NCBI GenBank assembly: GCA_013314775.1
Contig: JABUFB010000010.1
Coordinates: forward strand, 62,001-126,000
Direction: 5' to 3'
Source of the DNA: Armatimonadota bacterium
Lineage (GTDB): Bacteria; Armatimonadota; Zipacnadia; Zipacnadales; JABUFB01
DNA: 64,000 nt
Positions 46,933 to 63,721 of the stretch are shown here, piece after piece. Each line of letters begins with the position of its first letter. The stretch's first letter is position 1. The notes beneath the pieces were generated by a model. That model did no database searches. It was not told the origin of the DNA and worked only from the letters and a program-made list of their open reading frames with translations. Made by a program: the position numbers and the translations under genes.

Positions 46933-49824
46933 TCAATCTTCCGGCCGTTTGTCGCCTTGTCGTAGGCTTCTCTTGCGCTCAAGAAGGCGCGAGGTGGTGC
47001 GTTTCGGCTCGCCGGATGGGCGTGGGCCCGGCTGAGCGGCTGACCGGGGCTCTTCGGGTAAGGCAGATGGCGGCGAAGTGGGTGGCATCGGCGTCTCAGG
47101 CGGGACCAGGCCGGGGATGGTCTCCGGCTTCGGCGCTTCCTCGGCTTGCGATTTGCGCGCAAGAAGCCGGTCCATGGTGGCGGTATGCTGGCGCTTCGCA
47201 CCCCGGTGGGTGGAACGACCGATAGCACCAACGAGAGCCAGGAAGGGCGCCAGGTCTTCACGGGTGATGATCAGCCGGCGCACCGCAACGTCAAGCGGCA
47301 GCAACAGCGCGACCGCCCACAGCAGCGCCGCCCAGATGTCATGACTCGTCGTGGGCAGGCGCGAGGGCGGCTCGAACACCCCATCCGGGTTTTCCAGTAC
47401 GCGCCCGCCGGTCTCCCTCGCAAGACGTCGCAGGAGTGCTTCGTCCGGCTCCGTGTCCGCAAGGTCTGGGGGATACGCCACCGCGAAACCCACTGTGGTG
47501 CGGGCCGCGAACCCTCCCGGGCCCTGAGCCGAAACTCCCGCAACGTAGGCGCCGGTGGCTGGCGTTGGCACGTCAACCTCATAACGCCCCGGCCCGGTCT
47601 GTTCCAGCAGCATCTCCGCTTCAGACCCATCCGGTCGGCTCACCGCCGCCCGCAGTTCCAGGCCGTTGATCGCCCGCTCCGACGGGTCCAGCGCGTCCAC
47701 CACCAGCCGCGCGCGGTTTCCCTCGATTTCCACCGACGGCCGCAGGGATGCGTCGGGTTCGCGCCGCAAGCACCAGCGAACCGTCTGGCTCCAGAAGCGC
47801 GGGAACTGGGGCCAGTCCAGCCACGCCGCGCTCCATCTGTTCGAGGCGTCTGATGTGAAGGCCACGCTGCGCCCAAGCCCGTACTGCCAATGCGCAAGAA
47901 GCGGGTCATCCTTATGGGTAACCAGCGGAACGGAGGCCAAGTCCCGCGAGCTTGTCATCACATAACCCAGCAGTGGCGGAGCGCTCTTCCACGGAAGGCC
48001 CGACGTGACCGGGCTTGCATCCCCCAGTCTGGCCTGGAACGGCTCCTCGACGATTGCCGACTTCGCGACGGTCAGCGTCTCGCGGGTGAAGATGCGCTTC
48101 AGGTCGTGAGCCGAGCGGGCCAAATAGAACTGCCCTTTCCCCGACGCCGCGACGCCTTTGAGGAAGGGGACGTCCACTCCCTCACCGATTGAGACCGCGG
48201 TGGTTGTGATGCGCTTCGCCCGAAGCGCCTTGACCACGTCCATCGCGCCCTCCTGCTGCTCGGAGTCGTTTCCGTCGGCCAGCAGGATGACATGGCGGAT
48301 CGCCGCCGGGTAGTCCTTCAGCACACCGTACGCGGCCTCCAGCCCGGTGCGCACGTAGATTCCGCCGCCACCCGCCCGCAGCGAGCGGATGTCTGCCTTC
48401 ACCCCGCTGCCCGACTCGATTCTCCGCAGGGGGCAGACTTGCGTGGGTTCGGTATCCACTGCGATGACCCCAATTGAGTCATAGGGCTGCAGCAACTGCA
48501 CCACGGCTACCGCGGCTTCGGCGGCAAGCTGGATCTTCTCGACCCCGCCCTCGATCATCCCCATGCTGCCAGATGTATCGACGACGATCACAACCGCCGA
48601 TGCCGGGAAGACCCGGCGGCGCGAGATGTCCATGGTCACCGGCAATGCTTCCTCGATGGGGGTCTGGAAGTAGCCGCCGGGCCCGAAAGAGTAGTCTCCG
48701 CCGATCATACACAGCCCCGCACCCATGTCCCGAACCGAATTGCGCAGAAGCATCATCTGTCGGGATTCCATCTGGTACGCCGGGATGTTGGCCAGGATCA
48801 CTGCATCATAGCTCTCGATCTCGGCTGGGCTGGTGGGCAGAGCGGAGGCGTTTCCGGTGCGCACGTCGATGCCCTGGACCTCCAGCGCGCGGGCGAGGTA
48901 CTCCAGGTCCTCGTCCACCGAACCGGCCAGGAGTACCCTTGGGCGCCCGGAGACGCGCACGAAACTGGTGCCCGAATTGTTCTCCTGCAGACCGTCCTCC
49001 GGGCTCTCCAGAAGGACATCCACCCGGTGGAAGCCTGGTTCATCCAGCTTGAGGGGGACCCGTACCCCACTGCGACCGGCCGCGAGGGGCGCCTTGTTGC
49101 GGGAAACAGGCTTACCGTCCACAAGCACCGTGACGCGACCCGAAACAGGTGAGCGGCTGTCCAGATCAATGGTCACATCGAAGGGCTCGCCCTGCCTGGC
49201 ATCCGAGGGTGTACGTACCCCACGCACCAGAGCGTCGCGGGTCGCCCTGGTCTTCAGAGGGACCACATCCACAGGCACCCGCCGCGATCTGGCAAGCAGC
49301 GCTTCCTGTTCGGCTGCCCCAACGTTCTCATTGCCGTCACTCAGCAAGACAATGCGCCCTGCACGGTCCGGCGGGATGAGCCCCACCGCGAGCCTCAGTA
49401 CTCTCGCGATATCGGTGTGCCCGGGGTCAGGATTGGATGCAGGCCTCAGTGTGGCTCCGCGCCGCAGCGCCTCAGACTCGACCTGCGCATCGCGCCCGAA
49501 CATCACCAATGCAGCGCGATCCTGCGGGCGCGATGAGAGCGTGGCCTTGCGGATGAACTCGAGGGCCCGATCGCGCGACTCCGCGGCGACGCTGTGCGAA
49601 CTGTCCAGCGCAAAGACGACCACGAGGTCCCGGTTCACGCGTACCAGCTGAAGGCCGGCCAGCGCCAGGATCAGCGCGAGCACCAGCAGGCACCGCAGCA
49701 CCCACGCAGTCCAGGCGCGCAGCCCGGAAAGCGCCGCGAATGACCCGCGCGCAGCCCACCACAGGAGGGCCGCACAGACCGGCAACAGGAGCAGGTACTC
49801 GGGACGAGTCGCGGTAATCGACAT
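46933..49824 (-). CDS. Membrane protein with two VWA domains and a GATase1-like domain
   Basis: 963 residues. N-terminal helices (about 12-24 and 35-58) are followed by VWA 1 (about 65-210, MIDAS motif DSSHS), a beta domain, a class-I glutamine-amidotransferase-like domain (about 305-430: RVLLAGSVDEDLEYLARAL, then AGLCMIGGDYSFGPGGY), VWA 2 (about 440-590, MIDAS motif DTSGSMG), a beta-rich region, a late transmembrane helix (about 835-855) and a basic, Pro-rich cytoplasmic tail. Both MIDAS sites are intact. The closest known design is the large VWA membrane protein following MoxR/DUF58/BatA genes. The ATG at 49824 is 17 bases after the previous stop. Confidence 0.85.
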   Translation of the reverse strand: MSITATRPEYLLLLPVCAALLWWAARGSFAALSGLRAWTAWVLRCLLVLALILALAGLQLVRVNRDLVVVFALDSSHSVAAESRDRALEFIRKATLSSRPQDRAALVMFGRDAQVESEALRRGATLRPASNPDPGHTDIARVLRLAVGLIPPDRAGRIVLLSDGNENVGAAEQEALLARSRRVPVDVVPLKTRATRDALVRGVRTPSDARQGEPFDVTIDLDSRSPVSGRVTVLVDGKPVSRNKAPLAAGRSGVRVPLKLDEPGFHRVDVLLESPEDGLQENNSGTSFVRVSGRPRVLLAGSVDEDLEYLARALEVQGIDVRTGNASALPTSPAEIESYDAVILANIPAYQMESRQMMLLRNSVRDMGAGLCMIGGDYSFGPGGYFQTPIEEALPVTMDISRRRVFPASAVVIVVDTSGSMGMIEGGVEKIQLAAEAAVAVVQLLQPYDSIGVIAVDTEPTQVCPLRRIESGSGVKADIRSLRAGGGGIYVRTGLEAAYGVLKDYPAAIRHVILLADGNDSEQQEGAMDVVKALRAKRITTTAVSIGEGVDVPFLKGVAASGKGQFYLARSAHDLKRIFTRETLTVAKSAIVEEPFQARLGDASPVTSGLPWKSAPPLLGYVMTSSRDLASVPLVTHKDDPLLAHWQYGLGRSVAFTSDASNRWSAAWLDWPQFPRFWSQTVRWCLRREPDASLRPSVEIEGNRARLVVDALDPSERAINGLELRAAVSRPDGSEAEMLLEQTGPGRYEVDVPTPATGAYVAGVSAQGPGGFAARTTVGFAVAYPPDLADTEPDEALLRRLARETGGRVLENPDGVFEPPSRLPTTSHDIWAALLWAVALLLPLDVAVRRLIITREDLAPFLALVGAIGRSTHRGAKRQHTATMDRLLARKSQAEEAPKPETIPGLVPPETPMPPTSPPSALPEEPRSAAQPGPRPSGEPKRTTSRLLERKRSLRQGDKRPED

Positions 49825-49841
49825 GTTCAGACCCTGAGGCC

Positions 49842-51689
49842 TCAAGTCCCTCGGTGATAGATTCGCCACTCGAGCAGCAGCACGACCAACCCCACCAGCG
49901 CCAGCCACGGCCACACTCGCCTCTCTCCCACAGGCGAGATGAGGCTGGCGGGCACCTGTTGGCCCGACAACTCCAGCGCCCTCGCAGGCTCCAGATCGGA
50001 CTCCGTGGGTGACCGAAGATCCACCGCCCAACGACGGATATCTTCACCCACCTGCAGCCGATAGGCGCCCACGAGAGCGGTGTCAGCAACAGTCACCTGC
50101 CCCTCGCGCACTTCCAGCTTCCGGGACCTGTTGCCGGGAGCAGTGAGCATCGCGGTGGCCGTGTCCCCCGCAACCGCGAAGCGCAACAGGGTCCCGGGGC
50201 GAACCACCCGCGCCTTCTGGCGTGCACCAGGGGCGGTGAGCCAGTTGACCGCGTTGCCGAGGAACACCGGGAAACTCACACGCAGGGGCAGGTCTGAATC
50301 CAGCAGACTGAAGCCGACCGAAAGCGCTCGCAAGCCTGCTTCATCCAAAGTAACCAGCACCGGCCGCATCCCGCAACGTGCCAGAACGTCCGCTTCGGCG
50401 CAGGGCACCAGTTCCCGACCCACGCTGATGGTGGGCAGCGACAGGTTCACGTGCCGGCACACCGGATGTTCGCGTTCCCACGAGGTGATCTTCGCGGCCT
50501 TGTACGCGCTCGCGAGGGTGGCCGGAGCGCCCGGGGCGTCCGCTGAGATCATCAGGTACGCGCCTCGCGAAAGCGCCGCCGGAGGGTCCACGCGGTCGAA
50601 GACCACGAGGTCAAACGCGGACGCAGCGGCCGCCTGCTCTTCCGCTGTCAAGGTCGCGGCGCGGTGGACTTCGACCTCGGGCAGTACCAGCAGCCCCTGC
50701 TCGAGGAACAGGTTCCCCGGCGTCACCAGCAGCACTTTGAGCCCCGCGGAAGGCCCCCCGAAGGCATGAGCAACATTGTCCACCGCCAGGTCATCCGTCA
50801 CATCCAGTTCGGCCCGCAGCAGCCCGGGCGACGGCAGCCTCATGCCGAAAGTGAAGACTCGATCCGACGAGGGCGCGAGGGAGACGCGTTCGGCCAGCAC
50901 CAGCCGGTCTTCGAGAGTGATTGAGACGATACCCTCGCGCGCCGCGCCGTGATTGGCAATGCGCAGGAACGCCTCGTCCTGCCCGCGCGCGGAACGAGAG
51001 GCCTCAAAGGCGACGATCGCCGCGTTCTCGTTGCGCTGCCCGACCCGTGAGAACCGTACCCGGGCCGTCCCGGGCACATCATCCAGCGGCGGGAAAGCGC
51101 CGTCGCTGATCACGTGGACCTCCGGCTCGGGGCGATTGACGCACAGGCTCTGAGCCAGCAGAAGGGCGTCTCGAATCGCCGCTTCGGCGTGGGTGCATCC
51201 AAGGGCCTGCAGTACCCGGTTGGCGGCGCGGCGGTCGCTGGAGAAGGGCAGTGCGACCCAGGCACGGGTGCCTGCAACCACGATGGCACAGGAATCGCCG
51301 CGCTCCATGCCATCGACGATCCGCGCAGCCATGCCCCGGGCCTTCGCGAACCGAGAGCCGGGCTCATCCTCCGCGAGCATACTGGCGGAGGCGTCCAGCA
51401 CGATAACCGTGCTCTTTCCCCCGGCGCGTTTTGCGGTGACCACCGGGTTCGCCAGCGACACGATCACCAGGAGGAGTGCCAGGAGTTGCAGGATCAACAG
51501 GAGGTTCTTGCGCAGGCGCTGGAAAGGTGCGTTCGCGGTCACATCCTCAATCGCCTTGCGCCACAGGAACACTGAGGGCACAACCACGTCGCGGCGCTTG
51601 AGCTTCAGCAGGTACAGGAGGACAATCAGGCCGGCAAGGGGGATGGCAGCCAGGAGCAGCATCGGAGACAGAAAATGGAACCCGGTCAC
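49842..51689 (-). CDS. BatA-like VWA membrane protein
   Basis: 615 residues. The N-terminal BatA module (FLSPMLLLAAIPLAGLIVLLYLLKLKRRD, then VPSVFLWRKA, then a second helix about 62-82) is followed by a VWA domain (about 90-260, MIDAS motif DASASM). A long beta-rich extracellular or periplasmic part and a C-terminal helix (about 590-610) complete it. Related to BatA/BatB of the Bacteroides aerotolerance operon. The start is GTG at 51689, overlapping the DUF58 stop as GTGA, with AGGTG 6 bases upstream. Confidence 0.87.
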   Translation of the reverse strand: MTGFHFLSPMLLLAAIPLAGLIVLLYLLKLKRRDVVVPSVFLWRKAIEDVTANAPFQRLRKNLLLILQLLALLLVIVSLANPVVTAKRAGGKSTVIVLDASASMLAEDEPGSRFAKARGMAARIVDGMERGDSCAIVVAGTRAWVALPFSSDRRAANRVLQALGCTHAEAAIRDALLLAQSLCVNRPEPEVHVISDGAFPPLDDVPGTARVRFSRVGQRNENAAIVAFEASRSARGQDEAFLRIANHGAAREGIVSITLEDRLVLAERVSLAPSSDRVFTFGMRLPSPGLLRAELDVTDDLAVDNVAHAFGGPSAGLKVLLVTPGNLFLEQGLLVLPEVEVHRAATLTAEEQAAAASAFDLVVFDRVDPPAALSRGAYLMISADAPGAPATLASAYKAAKITSWEREHPVCRHVNLSLPTISVGRELVPCAEADVLARCGMRPVLVTLDEAGLRALSVGFSLLDSDLPLRVSFPVFLGNAVNWLTAPGARQKARVVRPGTLLRFAVAGDTATAMLTAPGNRSRKLEVREGQVTVADTALVGAYRLQVGEDIRRWAVDLRSPTESDLEPARALELSGQQVPASLISPVGERRVWPWLALVGLVVLLLEWRIYHRGT

Positions 51690-52588
51690 CGGATCACCTG
51701 CAGGCGGCGCAGGTCACGCAGGACCACGTCCTGCTCCGGGGCAGTGGTGAGCCGCAGAAGGTAGGGAAAACCGTAACGGAAGCACGCGCGCCGCACCGAC
51801 TCGAGGAAGGCATCGCGCTCCTGGACATACCGGCGCATCACCCCGGCGCCCATGGTCAGTTCCCGGGCCGAGTGGGTCTCAGAATCCACCAGCCGCAGGT
51901 CCCCCTGGAATCCCGGCGAGTACTCATCAGGACTCATCACCTGCAGCACGCAGGTCTCGCAGCGCGCCGCCGCCAGTTTCGCAAGTGCCGGCTCCCAGCC
52001 ATCGGTGAGCAGGTCTGAGACCAGAAACACCACACCGGGGGAAGGCGTGGTCGCCAGAAGCCCGTTCACCAGAGCCGGCAGGTTCGTCTCCCCGGAGGGC
52101 TCCAGCGAGGCCAGCCACGCGAAAGCCTCCGTAGCCGCAGGGCTCCCGCGCAGGAGGCGAGTGCGCCGGGTTTCCTCGCCCGCTCGGCAGAAGGCTTGCA
52201 TGCGGTCGGTGGACGAGAGCGCCAGATATCCCAGGGCTGCGCAGATACGGCGGCCCCAGCGGAACTTGTTCGGATTGCCGAAGTTCATGGACTGCGACCC
52301 GTCCAGGAGGAGGCTGACGGTCAAGTCCTCTTCCTCGACGAACAGCTTCACGAACATCCGGCTCAGGCGCGCGTAGGCGTTCCAGTCCACATAGCGCAGG
52401 TCATCACCCTGGGTGTATGAGCGGAAATCGGCGAACTCAACGGACGCCCCGCGGCGCGGAGACCGGCGCTCACCCCGGGTCTTCCCGGCCTTCACCCGAC
52501 GCGAGACCACGGCCGCGCGCTCCAGCCGGCGGAGAAACTCGGGCTCGAGGAGATTGGCAGCGGCGACTCGGGCGGATTCTTGAGGCAT
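51686..52588 (-). CDS. DUF58-domain protein
   Basis: 300 residues, full length for the family. The signature RRGASVEFADFRSYTQGDDLRYVDWNAYAR (about 45-75) and the VWA-like LLLDGSQSMNFG (about 92-103) are clear. No membrane segment. DUF58 proteins occur between MoxR ATPases and VWA proteins and are thought to be their soluble clients or adaptors. It begins 37 bases after moxR. Confidence 0.9.
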   Translation of the reverse strand: MPQESARVAAANLLEPEFLRRLERAAVVSRRVKAGKTRGERRSPRRGASVEFADFRSYTQGDDLRYVDWNAYARLSRMFVKLFVEEEDLTVSLLLDGSQSMNFGNPNKFRWGRRICAALGYLALSSTDRMQAFCRAGEETRRTRLLRGSPAATEAFAWLASLEPSGETNLPALVNGLLATTPSPGVVFLVSDLLTDGWEPALAKLAAARCETCVLQVMSPDEYSPGFQGDLRLVDSETHSARELTMGAGVMRRYVQERDAFLESVRRACFRYGFPYLLRLTTAPEQDVVLRDLRRLQVIR

Positions 52589-52625: not shown

Positions 52626-53657
52626 TCAGATCGGCAGGTCGCGGCCGGCGCCGGCTTTCACAGCCTCGATCATGTCCTGGATGAGATCATCCGGCGAAAC
52701 GCCTTCGGCCTGTCCCTCGAAATTGAGCACCAGGCGGTGGCGCAGGGCGGGCAGGGCAGCGGTTTCGATGTCCTCCACTGACACATTGTAGCGCTGGTCC
52801 ATGAGCGCCCGCACCTTCCCCGCGAGCAACAATGCCTGGGCCCCGCGCGGGCTCGAGCCGTAACGCACGAACTGCTTCACGCGGTCGGTCGCAAGGTCGC
52901 TCTCGGGGTGGCTGGACAGGACCAACCGCAGAGCGAAATCCCGCACATGGTGGGCCACCGGAACCGCCCTCACCGTCTTCGACAGCGCCAGCACCTCGGG
53001 CCTGGTGGCGACGCGCTCCACCGTGGGCATCATCGCACCGGTGGTGCGGTCCACGATTTCGTGCAGCTCATCCAGACTGGGAAACTTCACCAGCAGCTTG
53101 AACAGGAATCGGTCCAACTGGGCTTCGGGCAGAGGGTACGTGCCCTCCATCTCGATGGGATTTTGAGTTGCGAGAACCAGGAAGGGTTCCTCGAGACGCC
53201 TCTGCTCGCCCGCAACTGTCACCGAGTGCTCCTGCATTGCCTCCAGCAGCGCCGACTGGGTTTTCGGCGTGGCACGGTTGATCTCATCGGCGAGCACCAC
53301 GTTCGCGAACACCGGGCCGGGCTGGAACTGGAACTCCCGGCCACCGTCAGGCCGCTCCCACAGAACTGTCGTCCCGGTGATGTCCGCCGGCATGAGGTCC
53401 GGGGTGAACTGGATGCGCGCGAACCGCAGGTCCAAGGCACTGGCGAGAGAGTTCACCAGCAGCGTCTTGCCCAGTCCCGGCACGCCCTCGAGCAGCACAT
53501 GACCGCCGCAGAGGAGGGCGATGAGAGTGTCTGTGACCACATCATCCATGCCCACGATGACCTTGCCGACCTCGCCCCGAAGGGTCTGCACCAGGCGCCG
53601 GAACTGCTCCGCCTGCTGGACCGCCTGCTCGTGTGAATCCGCACTGTGTGGGAGCAA
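52626..53657 (-). CDS. MoxR-family AAA+ ATPase
   Basis: 343-residue AAA+ ATPase. Walker A GVPGLGKT, Walker B VVLADEINRA, sensor region ATQNPIEMEGTYPLPEAQLDRF and the lid domain are present. MoxR ATPases act as chaperones that mature or remodel partners through VWA proteins. The frame is open to a GTG at 53708, but TTG at 53657 has GGAGG 6 bases upstream and lies 1 base after the previous stop, so it is the likely start (the first residues are otherwise non-conserved). Confidence 0.9.
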   Translation of the reverse strand: MLPHSADSHEQAVQQAEQFRRLVQTLRGEVGKVIVGMDDVVTDTLIALLCGGHVLLEGVPGLGKTLLVNSLASALDLRFARIQFTPDLMPADITGTTVLWERPDGGREFQFQPGPVFANVVLADEINRATPKTQSALLEAMQEHSVTVAGEQRRLEEPFLVLATQNPIEMEGTYPLPEAQLDRFLFKLLVKFPSLDELHEIVDRTTGAMMPTVERVATRPEVLALSKTVRAVPVAHHVRDFALRLVLSSHPESDLATDRVKQFVRYGSSPRGAQALLLAGKVRALMDQRYNVSVEDIETAALPALRHRLVLNFEGQAEGVSPDDLIQDMIEAVKAGAGRDLPI

Positions 53658-53658
53658 C

Positions 53659-54042
53659 TCAGTCCTCCGTTTTGTCCCGTTCGCTTGCTGCGCGGGGCTG
53701 TTTCGCACCGTCCTGCAGCGCCCGGAAATAGTCCTTCACGGGCTCGCGGTACCCGGGCGGGACTTCCTCGCGCTCCACGGCTTCCTCGGCGGTCTTCGAA
53801 TACTCGCCGATCACTTCGTAATACGGGACCTTGCTGGCCGGGGTTGCCCCGGGCGCGCCGCGCTCCTCAATGGACAGCATCTCACCCTCGGGGTCTACAT
53901 CCACCGGGACCCGCAGCATCTCGCCCTCGGAGGGCGTCTCTCGCGGCGTGTACAGGTTCACCGGCGACGACGGGATCGGACTGCCATCCTGCCCGTGTGA
54001 GTCATACCCGGCGCCCTTTCCGGGCATCGTGCCTGTCGCCAT
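53659..54042 (-). CDS. C-terminal part of the interrupted coiled-coil protein
   Basis: 127 residues from the first ATG after an in-frame TGA. It is in the same reading frame as the gene at 54115-55452: between them lie one TGA (54117-54115) and 24 codons of Gly/Ala-rich linker. The piece has a Gly-rich start, VNLYTPRETPSEGE (about 28-42) and the globular end VPYYEVIGEYSKTAEEAVEREEVPPGYREPVKDYFRAL. From memory of such operons this end belongs on the coiled-coil protein itself (not verified). It may be made by readthrough, by reinitiation at 54042, or not at all. Confidence 0.6.
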   Translation of the reverse strand: MATGTMPGKGAGYDSHGQDGSPIPSSPVNLYTPRETPSEGEMLRVPVDVDPEGEMLSIEERGAPGATPASKVPYYEVIGEYSKTAEEAVEREEVPPGYREPVKDYFRALQDGAKQPRAASERDKTED

Positions 54043-54083
54043 TCCCTGCCCCGGTCCGCCGGAGCCTGCCGCACCGCAGCCCT

Positions 54084-54103
54084 GACCGCCGAAACCGGCG
54101 GCC
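54084..54103 (-). promoter_or_regulatory. Hairpin just downstream of the in-frame TGA (SECIS-like position)
   Basis: On the minus strand a 7-base stem, GGCCGCC with GGCGGTC (one G-T pair), closes a GGTTTC loop. The loop starts 19 bases after the TGA, the same distance as the GGUC loop in E. coli fdhF. Gly codons make such hairpins easily by chance, so this is suggestive only. Confidence 0.25.
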
Positions 54104-54114
54104 CCACCACCCAG

Positions 54115-55452
54115 TCACCCTGCGCCGTCCTTCGCCATCTGGGCCATCCGCAGCTTCAGCCTGCCGCTTGAACAGGCTTTCTCGGCCTTCTCAAGGGCCT
54201 TCTGCGCCCCTTCCCTGTCCCCCGCCTTCATCTTCTCGACGGCCTCAGAGAGTGCCTTGCCCAGCTCGTCCAGGTTGGTGTCCTTGAGGGCTTCCGCGAG
54301 CTTCTCGAGCTGCTTCGCCATCTCCTCAAGGTCCTTCTTCGACATCTTCTGCATTTTCTGTCCCGACTGCTTCGCAAGCTCCGAGAGCTTCTCCATGGCC
54401 TCCTGCATGTCCTCATTGGTCATGGCCTTCGCCAGCGCGGCTGCAGTTTCGGGCGATACCGGGATCTGCTGGCCCATGCGCTGGGCTGCCTGACGCAGGG
54501 CCTTCGCCGCCTTCGCCAGCTTCTCGGGACTGTCGGCCTCGCGCGCTTCGTCAGCCAGGCGCTCGAGTTCCTTCGCCTGGTCCAGCTTTCCGGCCCCGCG
54601 CGCCTGCGCCGCCAGCTTCTCAGCCTGCCGCGCCATGTCCTCGGCGGTCTTCCCAGTCAGTTCCTCGCCTGCCTTGCTCGCGGGCTTCATGGCGGGCGGC
54701 TGGATCTGTCTTGCGTACTTCTCGAGGTCCTTCTCCAGGTCGCGCATCTTCAGCAGCGCCTGCTTGCGGGGCAGCGACCCCCGGTCCAGCTCCTTCGCCA
54801 GCTTCTTCAGCCGCCGGGCAAGCTCGAACGCGTCCTCATCTTTCGCCTCGCGGGCCGCCTTCTCCAATTCCTTCGCCCGGGGCTTCATAAGCTTCGCGTG
54901 CTCGCGCAGGGCAGTCTTATCCTCGCGCTCGCCCGCGGCCGTGAGCAGCGGCGGGATCGGCAGGTAGAGCGCCAGGGCCAGGGCAACGAGGCTCCACGCG
55001 CCCACCTTTCCCGCGCGCGAGAGCCGCAATGGCAGCGCCTCGGCGGGCTCAAGGCGCGAGATCGCCTGGGATGCGTCGGCAATCGCCGCCCGCTCCATGC
55101 CCGAGACTTCAGGGCGCGCCAGCAGGTCGGCGGCGGTGGAGATGCGGTCCCGCAGGCCCAGGCGATGGTCGAGGGTCCGCGCCACGCGCTTCTCGGGGAG
55201 GGGCCAAAGGAGTGCAATCAGCCCCGCAGCGGCCACCGGAACCAGCGCGGGCCACAGTCCCCCGGGAGCGGGCTGGACATCATGCAGTCGCAGCCAAAGG
55301 ACCCACGCCGCCAGCGGCGCGGCAATGAAAGCGCAAGCAATCTGCACCCCGCGCGCCCCCAGCAGGAACCGGGCGCGCAGGCTCATGCGCCGCAGTCCCT
55401 CGCGGACGACGTCGGCAGGCGTCAGTGGGTTGTCCCGTGCGAGAGTGCTCAT
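54115..55452 (-). CDS. Two-helix membrane protein with long coiled coil (DUF4175-like), interrupted by TGA
   Basis: 445 residues to the TGA. Two transmembrane helices (about 36-55 and 66-83) are followed by a soluble stretch, a third hydrophobic segment (about 150-172) and a very long Lys/Glu/Ala-rich coiled coil (about 180-440: KELEKAAREAKDEDAFELARRL, then EMAKQLEKLAEALKDTNLDELGK). The frame continues after the stop for 151 more sense codons to 53659, so the intact protein would be about 596 residues. The start overlaps the upstream permease as ATGA. Similar coiled-coil proteins stand beside MoxR-DUF58-VWA genes; the role is unknown, perhaps a periplasmic or cytoplasmic scaffold. Confidence 0.82.
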   Translation of the reverse strand: MSTLARDNPLTPADVVREGLRRMSLRARFLLGARGVQIACAFIAAPLAAWVLWLRLHDVQPAPGGLWPALVPVAAAGLIALLWPLPEKRVARTLDHRLGLRDRISTAADLLARPEVSGMERAAIADASQAISRLEPAEALPLRLSRAGKVGAWSLVALALALYLPIPPLLTAAGEREDKTALREHAKLMKPRAKELEKAAREAKDEDAFELARRLKKLAKELDRGSLPRKQALLKMRDLEKDLEKYARQIQPPAMKPASKAGEELTGKTAEDMARQAEKLAAQARGAGKLDQAKELERLADEAREADSPEKLAKAAKALRQAAQRMGQQIPVSPETAAALAKAMTNEDMQEAMEKLSELAKQSGQKMQKMSKKDLEEMAKQLEKLAEALKDTNLDELGKALSEAVEKMKAGDREGAQKALEKAEKACSSGRLKLRMAQMAKDGAG

Positions 55453-56540
55453 TGGGTGTCAGCCCCGAACATCAGGATGCGCCAGATGCGGCTGCGCGCC
55501 TGGCCCTCGTACCCCATAGCGGCCAGGGACTGGAAGAACGCGGACCCCAGCAGGCTGAACACCAGCGCAGCCAGCCAGACCAGGGGAGCCGCTGATTGCT
55601 CGTCGGGCGCGGAGAACACGCCCATAACGTATCGGCTCCCGAGGAGCATTCCGGAAGGTGGATACAGGAACTGTATGATGGTGGCTCTCGTGTCAGTCTG
55701 TGATGCCAGCAGAAACGCCAGCAACAGTCCGGCGAAGAGACACGAGACCACCAGTGCCCCGACGAGACGCGCCGTGCAATCCGCCGCGTACCGGGCGATC
55801 CGCGCCAGGGCCCGGTATGCCACCGGAAGAGCCAGCAGGGCGGCCACAACGGCCACGAAGACCGCGCCGCGCACTCCAAGGGCGTCCTCGCTGCCCACCA
55901 CCCAAGTGCTCAGTGCCATCCCCAGAAACGGGACCACGCGCAGCAGGCCGAGGATCACGAAGGCGCGGATGACGGCCGACACGGTGTTCAGCGAGATCGC
56001 CGAGATCGCCGTGCCCAGGCACGACGCCCACACCACCAGGCCGACCAGCAGCACCACGCCCCCCAGCCACTCCCCGGGAGTGGGCCCACCAAGGAGCATC
56101 GCCCAGAACTGGAGCGGGACCAGGATACACAGCAGCACCAGGCCCGCATCCACGGTGGCGATGATCTTCCCGGTGACCACGTCGCCCGAGGTCAGCGGTG
56201 TGGCGCGAACATGCTCCAGCGTGCGTTTTTCGTGCTCAATCACGAGGCCCAGCGCCGAAGGGATCACCAGCAAGAGCGTGAGCAGCGACGCCGCGCCCGA
56301 GGTCAGCAGCATGCAGCTCACAGGACGGAGATGATCCTGCGCATTGCCCGCGACCAGTTCCGCGGTAACGCTCACCAACATGGGGACGGGACCAATCCCG
56401 GCCGCAACCGCGCCGATGCCGATGAGCCAGCGGGTCCAGGTGACGCGCTGCCGCGACCGCAGTTCGCGCACGGCCACGCACGGGTTGAACCCGTGTTTCG
56501 TCAGCCAGTCCTCGTGTTTGATGAGCAATCCGAGCAGCAT
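55449..56540 (-). CDS. ABC-2-type permease (second)
   Basis: 363 residues with about six transmembrane helices. It starts with the same type of N-terminal motif as its neighbour (NPCVAVRELRSRQR), has the coupling segment EHEKRTLEHVRATPLTSGDVVTGKI and ends in a predicted cytoplasmic tail. Together with the permease upstream (22 bases away) and the ATPase it forms a heteromeric exporter. The substrate is unknown. Confidence 0.87.
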   Translation of the reverse strand: MLLGLLIKHEDWLTKHGFNPCVAVRELRSRQRVTWTRWLIGIGAVAAGIGPVPMLVSVTAELVAGNAQDHLRPVSCMLLTSGAASLLTLLLVIPSALGLVIEHEKRTLEHVRATPLTSGDVVTGKIIATVDAGLVLLCILVPLQFWAMLLGGPTPGEWLGGVVLLVGLVVWASCLGTAISAISLNTVSAVIRAFVILGLLRVVPFLGMALSTWVVGSEDALGVRGAVFVAVVAALLALPVAYRALARIARYAADCTARLVGALVVSCLFAGLLLAFLLASQTDTRATIIQFLYPPSGMLLGSRYVMGVFSAPDEQSAAPLVWLAALVFSLLGSAFFQSLAAMGYEGQARSRIWRILMFGADTQ

Positions 56541-56562: not shown

Positions 56563-57675
56563 CTAATTCGTCTGGCGATCGAAAATACGTATGGTCAGTG
56601 CCCAAAGCCCCAGGGTCAGGAGCAAGGCCGCGGATGAACCGACGCCCCAAAGGTACGGCTGCGGGTCGAGCCCCGGATGGGCGGTGGTCAAGGCGCTCAG
56701 GGCATCGCGGGCAATGTCGGAGAAGATCAGCGCCGCAAGGAGCATCGCCGGGTGGAGGACCATGGGCGTCTCCGGCGCCATAGTGATCAGGAACCCGGCC
56801 ACCGGCTCCAGCACGTAGATCGCCCCCACAGCGCACACGGCAAGACCCACAAGAATCGAGAACAGGGTAACCGTTGAACTGCCACGCCAGGACTGTTTTA
56901 GCGAGAGCAGCCAGCGCACGATCAGCCCCGCGAGGGCGCCCAGGATGAAGAGCGGGACCAAGGTCAGGGTGAAGGCCACAGGAGCGCTCACATGGGGGGT
57001 GCCGCCCGACGAGTACGTGCTGTACCGAGTACTCTCTATAACGATGAACCACAGGACCGGCAGCGCCGCAAGGACGAGGAAGATCACGCCGTACGCCGAC
57101 ATCACCGCTCCCACCATGCGCTTCACACTGGCCGAAGTGAAGTACCCGATGGCTGAGAGCAGAGCCCCGGCGGAAAAGAGATAGGTGTAGACATAGAACA
57201 GGTCCATCGGCTGGATGCCGCCCAGCATCAGGCTCCAGGCTGCTACCGGCAAGGACGAGATCAGCAGCAGAATTACGAAACCCAGGGTGACGATCATCTT
57301 GCCGGTGATGATGTCGAAGGAGGTCAGCAGCGTAGCGCGCAGCATCTCCAGGGTGCGCTTCTCGCGCTCTAGGGTCACCGCCCCCGCCGACAGACCGGGC
57401 AGGAGCAGGGCCATGAACACAAGCTGCACATAGGCCAGAACCGAAAAGCTCATGCGGCCGATCTCGGCGCTGTCCGCGGGCGCTCCGTAACTGTATTGCC
57501 CGGCCTCGCTCATGATTAGGTAGGTGATCAACACCGACGCCGACGCCACCAGCGCGTACCCCAGGAGTAGCCAGAAAGGGCGCGCACCCCGCATCCGAGT
57601 GCGCAGTTCGTGGGTGCCCACGCAGATGTTGAACCCCATCCGCTGCAGGATTGCCCAGCCGAGATTCGTGAACAT
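56563..57675 (-). CDS. ABC-2-type permease (first)
   Basis: 370 residues with about six to eight transmembrane helices. NICVGTHELRTRMRG at the N-terminus and LEREKRTLEMLRATLLTSFDIITGKMI mirror the second permease, so the two arose by duplication and form a heterodimer. It begins 22 bases after the ATPase stop. The layout resembles GldF-type components of gliding-motility transporters (inference). Confidence 0.87.
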   Translation of the reverse strand: MFTNLGWAILQRMGFNICVGTHELRTRMRGARPFWLLLGYALVASASVLITYLIMSEAGQYSYGAPADSAEIGRMSFSVLAYVQLVFMALLLPGLSAGAVTLEREKRTLEMLRATLLTSFDIITGKMIVTLGFVILLLISSLPVAAWSLMLGGIQPMDLFYVYTYLFSAGALLSAIGYFTSASVKRMVGAVMSAYGVIFLVLAALPVLWFIVIESTRYSTYSSGGTPHVSAPVAFTLTLVPLFILGALAGLIVRWLLSLKQSWRGSSTVTLFSILVGLAVCAVGAIYVLEPVAGFLITMAPETPMVLHPAMLLAALIFSDIARDALSALTTAHPGLDPQPYLWGVGSSAALLLTLGLWALTIRIFDRQTN

Positions 57676-57697: not shown

Positions 57698-58624
57698 TCA
57701 CGACACGATTCCCCGGGTCAGCCGCATGTAGACTTCCTCCAGGTTCACTTCCTGCTCGCTGAATGACTGGACCACGAACCCGCCGTTCACCAGCGCCAGA
57801 AGAAGCTCATGCTGCGCCGACTGGTCACCCGTATATACGGCATGGATCGCGTCATCCACGATCTCCGAACTCACTACGTTCTCGCACTGCGCCAGGATCC
57901 TGCACGCATCTTCGGAGCGCTCCCGGACTTTCACCACGATTCTCCGGCCACCCTCGAGTTGGGCAGCAACTTCCTTCGGCGACCCCGCGTACACAAGCCT
58001 GCCCTGCTCAATGATGACCACCTTATTGCACAGGTCGGCAAGCTCGGTAAGGATATGGGAGGAGATCAGGATCGTCTTCTCCATGGCGCAGAGCTCCTTG
58101 AGAAGCTCCCTGATCTCAATGCGCGCCCGGGGGTCGAGACCGGACGCGGGCTCGTCCAGTAGCAGCACTTCGGGGTCATGCACGAGAGTCTTCGCCAGAC
58201 ACAAGCGCTGCTTCATGCCGCGGGAGAGTGTGTCCACGTAGTCGTTTCGCTTGGCGGTAAGGTCGGTGAGTTGCAGCACATCGTCGATAAGCCCCGGACG
58301 GTCGCTGGGCGGTACGCGGTATGCAGCGGCGAAGAAGTCCAGGTACTCGGTGACCTTCATATCGTCGTACACGCCGAAAAAGTCGGGCATGTAACCCACG
58401 CAGGCCCGCACCTTCTCCGGTTCCTTGAGCACGTCGTGGCCGTTGATGATCGCCGTGCCGCTGTCCGGCCTCAGGAGCGTGGCCAGCATGCGGATCGTGG
58501 TGGTCTTCCCCGCCCCGTTGGGCCCGATGAACCCCAGGGCGTCGCCGCGTTCCACCGAAAACGTCAGGCCGTTCACTGCGGTCAGCCCGCCGAAGCGCTT
58601 GGTGAGCCCGTTGACCTGGATCAT
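57698..58624 (-). CDS. ABC transporter ATP-binding protein
   Basis: 308-residue CcmA/GldA-type ATPase. Walker A GPNGAGKTT (about 34-42), signature TLSRGMKQRLCLA, Walker B VLLLDEPASGLDP and the H-loop SSHIL are intact. A C-terminal extension of about 80 residues (VVKVRERSEDACRILAQ, then VNLEEVYMRLTRG) is normal for ABC-2 exporters. It is followed by two permease genes and preceded by the 834-residue membrane protein. Confidence 0.93.
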   Translation of the reverse strand: MIQVNGLTKRFGGLTAVNGLTFSVERGDALGFIGPNGAGKTTTIRMLATLLRPDSGTAIINGHDVLKEPEKVRACVGYMPDFFGVYDDMKVTEYLDFFAAAYRVPPSDRPGLIDDVLQLTDLTAKRNDYVDTLSRGMKQRLCLAKTLVHDPEVLLLDEPASGLDPRARIEIRELLKELCAMEKTILISSHILTELADLCNKVVIIEQGRLVYAGSPKEVAAQLEGGRRIVVKVRERSEDACRILAQCENVVSSEIVDDAIHAVYTGDQSAQHELLLALVNGGFVVQSFSEQEVNLEEVYMRLTRGIVS

Positions 58625-61276: not shown

Positions 61277-63721
61277 TTAGGGCGGGCCCTCCCCGGCGGG
61301 CCCGGCTGACTGGTCGCGCTCGGCCAGCAGTCTCTGGAGAGTGTTCGTTAGTTCGCTGAAGGGGGCGGGCTTGTCGAACCACGCGTCCGCCTTCATCCAG
61401 TCCAGCACTTCCTCGGGGTTGCGGTGGTAGTCGAACCCGGTCACCTGTACGACCGACGTGAGCATGATGATGGGTGCGGTGCGGAAGCGTGGGTCCCGGC
61501 GCAGGGCTCTGGCCAGACGCGCGCCCGAGTCGGTGCGTTCCATCATCATGTCCAGCAGGAATGCGTCGGGGATTTCGCGGTTGGCTACCTCGATGGCCTC
61601 ATCGCTGCGCTCCGCCGTGACAACGTCGAACCCCTTGCTTTCCAGGACGATGCGGTGCTGCTCGATGAAGTCCGGGTCGTCGTCCACAACCAGCACTTTC
61701 ATGGATTCACGCGCGGCTCGTGGCGGGGTGTCAATGGGCAGGCGAATGGTGACGCGGGTGCCTTCTCCCGGTTCACTCTTGATATGAATATCTCCACCGT
61801 GGGCCAGCACCACCCCGTGTGCCACGGCAAGGCCCAGTCCGGAGCCGGGACGGTCGGTCTTCGTGGTGACGAAGGGCTGAAACAGCCGGGGCATGAGCGC
61901 CGGATCGATCCCGTGCCCGTCGTCTTCGATGATGATGTCCACATTCCGGCCCTGATCGTGCAGTTCAGCAGTTACGCTCACGTGCCCGCCTGGCTCCACG
62001 GCTTCGATGGCGTTGGCCAGAATGTTGCTCACGACCTGGGTAAGCTGAGACCCATCAGCTGTGATGGTCGGGATATTCTCGGGGATGTGCACCGAAAGCT
62101 GAACATTGGCGGCGGCAAGTTCGGGCTCGAGCTCCTTCAGGGCCGACTGGACGAAGTCGGCGACCCGGGTGTCCTCCCACACCGGCTCGCGCTGGCGCGC
62201 AAAGCCCTGCAGGCCAGACACAACGTGACGTACCTGGCGGGCCTCGGCGATTACGGTCTCCAGATCGTCCCGCCGCACGTCGTCCTCGGGCAGACTGTTC
62301 CGCAGGAGCTGGGCGAAGGCCACGATCTTTGCAAGTGGGCTGCTTATCTCCTGGGCCACATCCGCGGCAAGCTCGCCCATGGATGCCAGTTGCTGGGAGC
62401 GGGTGGCCAGATCGCGGGCACGCTCGATCTCGCCCTTGCTGGAGCTGAGCTTCTGAATGTTCACCTCAAGCTGGTCGATGAGATAGGGCAGGCACATCTC
62501 CGGCTCTGCAATTCCCTGGTACACCGCGATCGCTTTTTCGCGGCAAGTTGGGTATCCGCATGCGCCGCAGTTCAGCTCGTCCTGCCGGCCATGCTTGTTG
62601 GTGCGCGCGAGAATGTCCCGGATCTCCGTCTCGTTGGGCACATTCAGCTCAATCGCCCGCGGCGAGAATCCCCGGCTGAGGTCGATGGCCGCGAGCTTCT
62701 CCAATACGCACTCCGGCGCTTCCTCCCCGGATACCAGGGAGCGCACGTGCTCGGTGACCCGGGACTTACGCGACAGGGGCGATACATTGTCGGCGAACCC
62801 TGGTCCCGCAATACAGCCCTCGCAGAAGAGCATGTCCAGGAATTGAGCAGGGAACTCGCCCCGCGCCAAAGCCTGCAGGGCCGACCGGCAGCTATCGGGG
62901 CCCTCGATGATTTCGATGCGATCGTCCATGAGGTCGGCATCGACGCTGGCGGCCCTCAACAGCCCGCCGGCCACCGGGAACAGAGCCCCAAAACCGGGCA
63001 GCGGCGGGTCCGCTCGTGACGGTTCCACGGCCGACGGATCCACCCCGCGCGCTTGGAACAGGTCCTGGAGCTCGCGGAAAGTCAACACCGCATCCACGGA
63101 GCCGGCCACGTCGGGATCGCGCACCTCTTCCTTCTTCGCGATGCACGGCCCGATGAAGACCACGGATGCGTCCGGGTAGAACTCTTCGCGCACCGCCCGT
63201 CCAAGCGCGATCATGGGCGAGACAATGGGCGCCATCCAGGGCACCAGGTCTGGCATGTGCTTGGAGATATAACTGACCAGCGCCGGGCACGGGGTGGTGA
63301 TGACGGGATGATCGGGGGGATCGGCAATAAGCTTCGCATACTCGGCGGCGACCATGTCGGCGCCGAAGCCCACCTCCAGCACGCGGTCGAAGCCCAGCGC
63401 GCGCACGGCGCCCACAACCTGGTCAGCCGAGAGCTCACTGTAGGCCGCGGCATAGGAGGGCGCGAGTATGGCCACGGTCGGCCGCTCCTCGTTGAGGAGC
63501 TGTTCCACCGTCGGCCCCCCGGGCTGTACCTGCTTGGCGTTCTGAGCGCAGACACGCACGCAATTGCCGCAGCCGATGCAGCGTTCGGCAATGACGGTTG
63601 CCTGTCCGTCCTGCACCCGGATCGCCTTCGCCGGACAACTGCGCACACAGTTATAGCACCGGCGGCACTTGTCCGCGATGGTGGTGACGACGCTGTCGAT
63701 GTGGCCGGCTGATGAGTCCAA
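61277..63721 (-). CDS. FeFe-hydrogenase-derived sensor with degenerate kinase and receiver
   Basis: 814 residues, cytoplasmic. Two [4Fe-4S] ferredoxin clusters (C19/22/25/29 and C48/51/54/58). A hydrogenase large-subunit-like domain (about 80-350) has TTPCPA (C145), GPCIAKKEE (C193) and CEGC (C300, C303). A 4Fe-4S knot follows (CGACGYPTC, C410). The dimerisation helix reads DVAQEISSP with Gln457 where the phosphoacceptor His is expected. HATPase motifs NILANAIEA, DDGHGIDP and GSGLGLAVAHG are intact. A receiver domain (about 690-800, LLDMMM) ends the protein. The proton-transfer Cys of active hydrogenases is Pro144 here, so sensing rather than turnover is likely. The start is TTG at 63721, with GGGAG 6 bases upstream. 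Confidence 0.83.
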   Translation of the reverse strand: MDSSAGHIDSVVTTIADKCRRCYNCVRSCPAKAIRVQDGQATVIAERCIGCGNCVRVCAQNAKQVQPGGPTVEQLLNEERPTVAILAPSYAAAYSELSADQVVGAVRALGFDRVLEVGFGADMVAAEYAKLIADPPDHPVITTPCPALVSYISKHMPDLVPWMAPIVSPMIALGRAVREEFYPDASVVFIGPCIAKKEEVRDPDVAGSVDAVLTFRELQDLFQARGVDPSAVEPSRADPPLPGFGALFPVAGGLLRAASVDADLMDDRIEIIEGPDSCRSALQALARGEFPAQFLDMLFCEGCIAGPGFADNVSPLSRKSRVTEHVRSLVSGEEAPECVLEKLAAIDLSRGFSPRAIELNVPNETEIRDILARTNKHGRQDELNCGACGYPTCREKAIAVYQGIAEPEMCLPYLIDQLEVNIQKLSSSKGEIERARDLATRSQQLASMGELAADVAQEISSPLAKIVAFAQLLRNSLPEDDVRRDDLETVIAEARQVRHVVSGLQGFARQREPVWEDTRVADFVQSALKELEPELAAANVQLSVHIPENIPTITADGSQLTQVVSNILANAIEAVEPGGHVSVTAELHDQGRNVDIIIEDDGHGIDPALMPRLFQPFVTTKTDRPGSGLGLAVAHGVVLAHGGDIHIKSEPGEGTRVTIRLPIDTPPRAARESMKVLVVDDDPDFIEQHRIVLESKGFDVVTAERSDEAIEVANREIPDAFLLDMMMERTDSGARLARALRRDPRFRTAPIIMLTSVVQVTGFDYHRNPEEVLDWMKADAWFDKPAPFSELTNTLQRLLAERDQSAGPAGEGPP

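Follow-up and report, generated by a model that had tools for sequence, protein, structure and literature searches.

The window, a 64,000-nucleotide stretch of Armatimonadota DNA, carries on its minus strand a gene (55452-53659) in which an internal TGA codon (54117-54115) is very probably read as selenocysteine (Sec). With high confidence, the gene would encode a single selenoprotein of 597 residues, its UGA decoded via SelA, SelB and tRNA-Sec together with a hairpin at 54103-54084, and would belong to an uncatalogued Armatimonadota family. Comparison among homologues establishes a conserved UGA, exchange of Sec with cysteine (Cys), a SECIS-type hairpin, decoding machinery, coding constraint and a shared operon, and from these sequence comparisons we infer that Sec is inserted in vivo.

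An in-frame TGA in a conserved coding frame

The gene starts with an ATG at 55452 and runs through 445 codons, the TGA, a further 151 codons and a terminal TGA (53661-53659), placing the putative Sec at residue 446. An earlier note on this DNA had described a lone in-frame TGA that splits one reading frame inside a Gly/Ala-rich linker. Both points are confirmed on the minus strand, where the surrounding sequence is a Gly-rich linker, DGAG-stop-LGGGAAGFGG. Homologues align end to end across the TGA, and coding constraint is equally strong on both of its sides: dN/dS between the window and a congener is 0.14 upstream and 0.11 downstream. The coding character that the earlier note saw retained past the stop had thus been seen correctly. 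In the same comparison, synonymous change drops across the 44 codons that follow the TGA (dS 0.12 versus 0.31, from just 4 changes), as expected of an RNA element within a coding region.

The read-through protein was searched for in close relatives, then in the order and then in the phylum, and homologues were re-read with TGA open. An in-frame TGA lies in the same Gly-rich linker in 40 of the 291 Armatimonadota genomes searched, covering about 20 families and 43 TGAs, while Cys forms of the family occur in many more. Among the TGA-bearing homologues are one from a congener at 92% identity, one from a second genus in the same family at 58%, and numerous distant ones. A recent nonsense mutation (GGA to TGA) or an assembly error, both listed in the earlier note, would suit a TGA that lies among Gly codons and one base from a Gly codon. 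However, the same TGA in the congener, an independently assembled MAG, and in 38 more genomes, with purifying selection continuing downstream, leaves a broken gene next to no probability; recurrence in 40 genomes excludes both mutation and misassembly.

All 43 interruptions at the linker site are TGA, with TAA or TAG in none. In comparison, terminal stops of the TGA-bearing members are mixed (20 TGA, 13 TAG and 6 TAA in 39 genes; binomial 4e-13, kinship ignored), which speaks against pseudogenes and unspecific readthrough. Terminal stops also bear on an organism-wide reassignment of UGA to an ordinary amino acid. In genetic codes 4 and 25, UGA is Trp or Gly, and a Gly-rich site would fit UGA as Gly. 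However, TGA is the terminal stop in seven of the ten window genes examined, as it is in 20 of the 39 TGA-bearing family members. Because TGA is a normal terminator, a reassigned code is refuted and carries negligible weight.

The earlier note had also raised the option of two proteins, with termination at the TGA and reinitiation at ATG 54042. This in-frame ATG lies 24 codons past the TGA and is kept in the congener (G001). However, G002 has no Met at that position, the stretch from TGA to ATG is conserved as protein, and most homologues are one uninterrupted ORF. Reinitiation was rejected on the lack of Met conservation and is scarcely credible.

The residues preceding the TGA are GGT or GGG in 30 of 43 cases, and the base following it is C in 20, A in 13 and G in 10. 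In three genomes, the linker holds a pair of in-frame TGAs separated by 7 or 15 codons (G059, L137; G102, L165; G105, L172), and GFV instead of GG precedes the first TGA of G105. In G050, which is related to G059, the first position is Cys and the second Sec.

Exchange of selenocysteine and cysteine

In alignments of close relatives, the TGA column is occupied by Cys in several independent clades, with clear pairs in at least five. For example, G221 has KACRSC (KACRSCQQAGAC) versus KAGGTU (KAGGTULSAGAC) in seven congeners, G244 has AGGTC (AGGTCQS) versus AGGTU (AGGTURA) in G245, and G286 has GKGC (GKGCSMC) versus GGGU (GGGUQGC) in G287. Elsewhere, G186, G109, G162 and G170 carry Cys versus Sec in G182 and G169 (CEGAC in G186 and CEGGU in G182, for instance), as do G201, G213 and G215 versus G102 and G105, and G006 and G018 versus the window sequence (G000). 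The Cys of G050 aligns to the first Sec of G059. On the tree, the Sec label changes at least 11 times on well-supported branches. The TGA column is not always Cys, since some non-Sec members have Gly on it with Cys one or two places off, and some lack the motif. Examining homologues at this codon had been proposed in the earlier note; the Cys or identical TGA found there supports recoding.

A SECIS-type hairpin after the TGA

A bacterial SECIS-type hairpin lies on the minus strand at 54084..54103, with an 8-bp stem (arms 54103-54096 and 54091-54084, including one G-U pair) and a GUUU apical loop that begins 19 nt downstream of the TGA (E -14.7; p 0.01 in synonymous shuffles). The 7-base stem with a GGTTTC loop reported previously is real, and can be described either as 8 bp with GUUU or as 7 bp with GGUUUC. 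This hairpin would direct Sec insertion at the UGA. By folding alone, it is not significant (z = -1.15); the region is GC-rich, which makes the hairpin unremarkable by this measure, and comparison therefore had to decide.

The bacterial SECIS model has a loop of 3-9 nt, a stem of 4-16 bp and a G in the first two loop positions, lies 16-37 nt from the UGA and has E <= -7.5 kcal/mol (PMC13188914). The window hairpin falls within these limits in both energy and distance. Across the family, 37 of 43 TGAs pass the model and six fail, versus 7 passes at 61 terminal TGA stops (Fisher 7e-15), and the background among 3089 Gly-adjacent linker codons of non-TGA homologues is 7.3%. Shuffling synonymous codons within the TGA-bearing genes gives a combined p of 4e-17, with the reservation that related genes are not independent, and p for single genes is often > 0.05. 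The position is also regular: in 38 of 42 cases, the distance from the TGA to the start of the apical loop is 19-23 nt. Between +15 and +30, 24 of 43 show a GGU[CU] loop signature (8.3 expected, with a maximum of 17 in 500 synonymous shuffles), and relatives of the window gene have the hairpin at the same position with the same GGU[C/U] signature. It is the recurrence of TGA and SECIS-type hairpin together in homologues that makes the hairpin significant by comparison.

Selenocysteine machinery

The genome that contains the window encodes selA, selB, tRNA-Sec (selC; anticodon UCA) and selD, and thus all four genes that the earlier note had suggested looking for. This machinery would decode the UGA at 54117-54115 as Sec. 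The selD match (TIGR00476, 388 bits) adjoins the tRNA-Sec gene. As a separate observation, this selD (L020:353-1396) is itself a selenoprotein gene, with a TGA in place of the catalytic codon (RLTKMASAAGUAAKL) and the hairpin CUCGCA-GGUCC-UGCGAG downstream of it, and automatic annotation would therefore cut selD too.

Among scorable genomes, selA is present in 36 of 39 with the TGA versus 44 of 92 without it (Fisher 6e-7), matches weaker than E 1e-20 being left out of these counts. For tRNA-Sec, RF01852 cross-matches below about 60 bits were treated as ordinary long-armed tRNAs. Two selA-negative TGA genomes, G001 and G044, carry selB and a 72-76 bit tRNA-Sec, so that Sec machinery is found in 38 of 39 full-length TGA-bearing genomes and only G250 is without evidence of it. 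G250 (L082; 88% complete) yielded no selA, selB or high-scoring tRNA-Sec, though it bears the TGA; either the genome is incomplete or the gene is decaying. The eight non-TGA members of the same order as the window genome were found to be without selA (G006, G008, G018, G022, G025, G029, G031 and G035). In a kinship-controlled sign test on independent pairs, selA tracks Sec in 3.3 and opposes it in 0.3 (median p 0.25), which is the right direction but not significant, there being too few pairs.

These results also weigh on regulated readthrough by an ordinary tRNA, another option of the earlier note, in which a long product would appear beside a short membrane-bound one, without selenium. In its favour, both parts of the protein are conserved, an optional extension could conveniently attach at a flexible linker, and the base after the TGA varies, including C, the usual leaky context. 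However, TAG or TAA never stands at the site, sister lineages have Cys and not a random near-cognate residue, and the Cys forms give one uninterrupted protein. Together with SECIS-type hairpins at a fixed distance and the near-complete presence of Sec machinery, this makes selenium-free readthrough very unlikely.

Sec had been among the five options of the earlier note but was ranked low. The option itself is upheld by the Cys and TGA homologues, the sel genes and the exclusive use of TGA; its low rank is not. The argument behind that rank, that a linker location speaks against a redox Sec, is judged wrong.

Predicted architecture of the protein

The product would be a membrane-anchored helical protein with Sec (or Cys) in a flexible Gly-rich linker before a C-terminal helix pair. 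Its N-terminal part (54118..55452, minus strand) has three hydrophobic segments by hydropathy (about residues 36-54, 64-82 and 155-173), followed by long helices in an AlphaFold2 model (mean pLDDT about 68). The C-terminal part (53662..54114, minus strand) comprises the Gly-rich disordered linker and a conserved SKVPYYEVIGEYSKTAEEA...VPPGYREPVKDYF helical end, and most of the invariant columns of the family alignment fall within it. The model (pTM 0.39) places Sec 446 where the last long helix ends and confidence drops, and the disordered linker is predicted from about residue 456 to 544, followed by the conserved helix pair.

A fold search of this model against the PDB returned nothing (best E 0.43), as expected for a long helical model of such pTM. 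Searches of Pfam and NCBIfam gave no family match for the selenoprotein; one of 12 members matched DUF4175 (PF13779) weakly (E 0.005), below the Pfam gathering cut-off.

In three lineages, Sec lies within or beside CxxC or DnaJ-type CxxCxGxG-like motifs, with contexts such as CPECAGGGUQGC in G287, CKICQGMGKLGKDGKPUATC in G044 and CPTHGNQCPNPQPGGGU in G007. The repeats around the Sec/Cys site in G286 (L056), G287 (L095) and G044 (L079) are like those of the DnaJ zinc domain; they read CPHCGGKGCSMCQGTG in the Cys form, and Sec takes the place of one cysteine. The position of Sec in or near CxxC-type motifs favours a redox or metal-binding site.

Operon context and possible function

The selenoprotein gene sits in a conserved ABC-transporter/MoxR/DUF58/BatA operon on the minus strand. 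Upstream of it are an ABC transporter ATPase (57698..58624; 50-70% identity in relatives) and two ABC-2 type permeases, one at 56563..57675 (weak match, 8e-6, and synteny) and one at 55449..56540 whose stop overlaps the selenoprotein start codon (ATGA). The next gene downstream encodes a MoxR AAA+ ATPase (52626..53657; AAA_3, E 7e-64, and synteny), followed by a DUF58 protein (51686..52588), a BatA/VWA protein (49842..51689) and a VWA plus GATase1-like protein (46933..49974), the last three assigned by profile match and synteny. The selenoprotein would share its operon with an ABC transporter and a MoxR-DUF58-BatA/VWA system.

MoxR is beside the selenoprotein gene in 9 of 13 neighbourhoods examined; in G225 and G221, which share a genus, and in G287 and G047, no MoxR was detected close to it. 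The order DUF-ABC-permease-Sec protein-MoxR-DUF58-BatA/VWA is kept in the distant members G120 and G169 and largely in G102 and G268, likewise distant, and the Cys form in G006 keeps the same operon order. Elsewhere in the window, a single ORF at 61277-63721 encodes an FeFe-hydrogenase-like sensor, in which ferredoxin-type clusters and the C-terminal domain of an iron-only hydrogenase large subunit are combined with a histidine kinase and a response regulator receiver.

We tentatively suggest that the Sec/Cys site may act together with the MoxR/VWA proteins as a redox or metal-binding centre. With the same reserve, Sec, which is repeatedly swapped with Cys and sometimes doubled (G059, G102 and G105), could provide a selenol/thiol site for redox chemistry or metal transfer, carried on a flexible arm and serving the MoxR AAA+/VWA chaperone system. 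If true, the MoxR/Bat systems would gain their first selenium-dependent example, and Sec use in Armatimonadota would be sustained in part by a MoxR-linked selenoprotein.

Comparison with known systems

Bacterial selenoproteins, such as E. coli FdhF and FdnG, and SelD, rely on decoding by SelB and a SECIS hairpin just after the UGA. The window gene resembles them in its in-frame UGA, a hairpin 16-37 nt downstream whose loop opens with G, pairs of Sec and Cys homologues, and selABCD, and its own genome's SelD has the same hairpin type. However, FdhF, FdnG and SelD are enzymes with Sec in a folded active site, whereas the window protein, membrane-anchored, helical and lacking any recognised domain, would carry Sec where a predicted disordered Gly-rich linker begins. 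In eukaryotes, selenoproteins K and S are also membrane-anchored, with Sec in a disordered segment that is Gly-rich in K; this resemblance is architectural only, and no sequence relation is expected.

A 2026 inventory lists 119 prokaryotic selenoprotein families (PMC13188914, Table 1). Some of these share Gly-Sec motifs with the window protein, e.g. 'GxGU', 'GUxG' and 'UGSC', but none of the 119, compared by description, is a membrane coiled-coil or MoxR-linked (PMC13188914). The families of Haft and Gwadz 2023 and Haft and Tolstoy 2025 were compared only through that table and NCBIfam. The NCBIfam selenoprotein models gave no match at E <= 1 to the window protein and three distant members, nothing fitting appeared in the 2022 list (PMC9312934) or deep-Sep (PMC12013277), and a full-text literature search returned no paper on Armatimonadota selenoproteins. 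Within the catalogues checked, the gene is best read as a new selenoprotein family, SelB-dependent Sec insertion itself being already known. This widespread family was apparently missed by catalogues, presumably because annotation pipelines cut the gene at the UGA. With Sec next to a disordered linker, it brings in a membrane-anchored, non-thioredoxin architecture, and the natural Sec/Cys swaps within one genus (G221 versus its congeners) make the cost and benefit of Sec testable.

MoxR-DUF58-BatA/VWA operons are found in MoxR AAA+/VWA systems of the Bat, CoxDE and NorQD type. We found no published link between MoxR/VWA systems and selenocysteine; the family described here ties selenium to the poorly understood MoxR/DUF58/BatA systems. 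The window operon is like these operons in its downstream genes, which encode MoxR (AAA_3), DUF58, BatA and VWA proteins, and unlike the named examples in carrying, between the ABC permeases and moxR, a gene without a named family.
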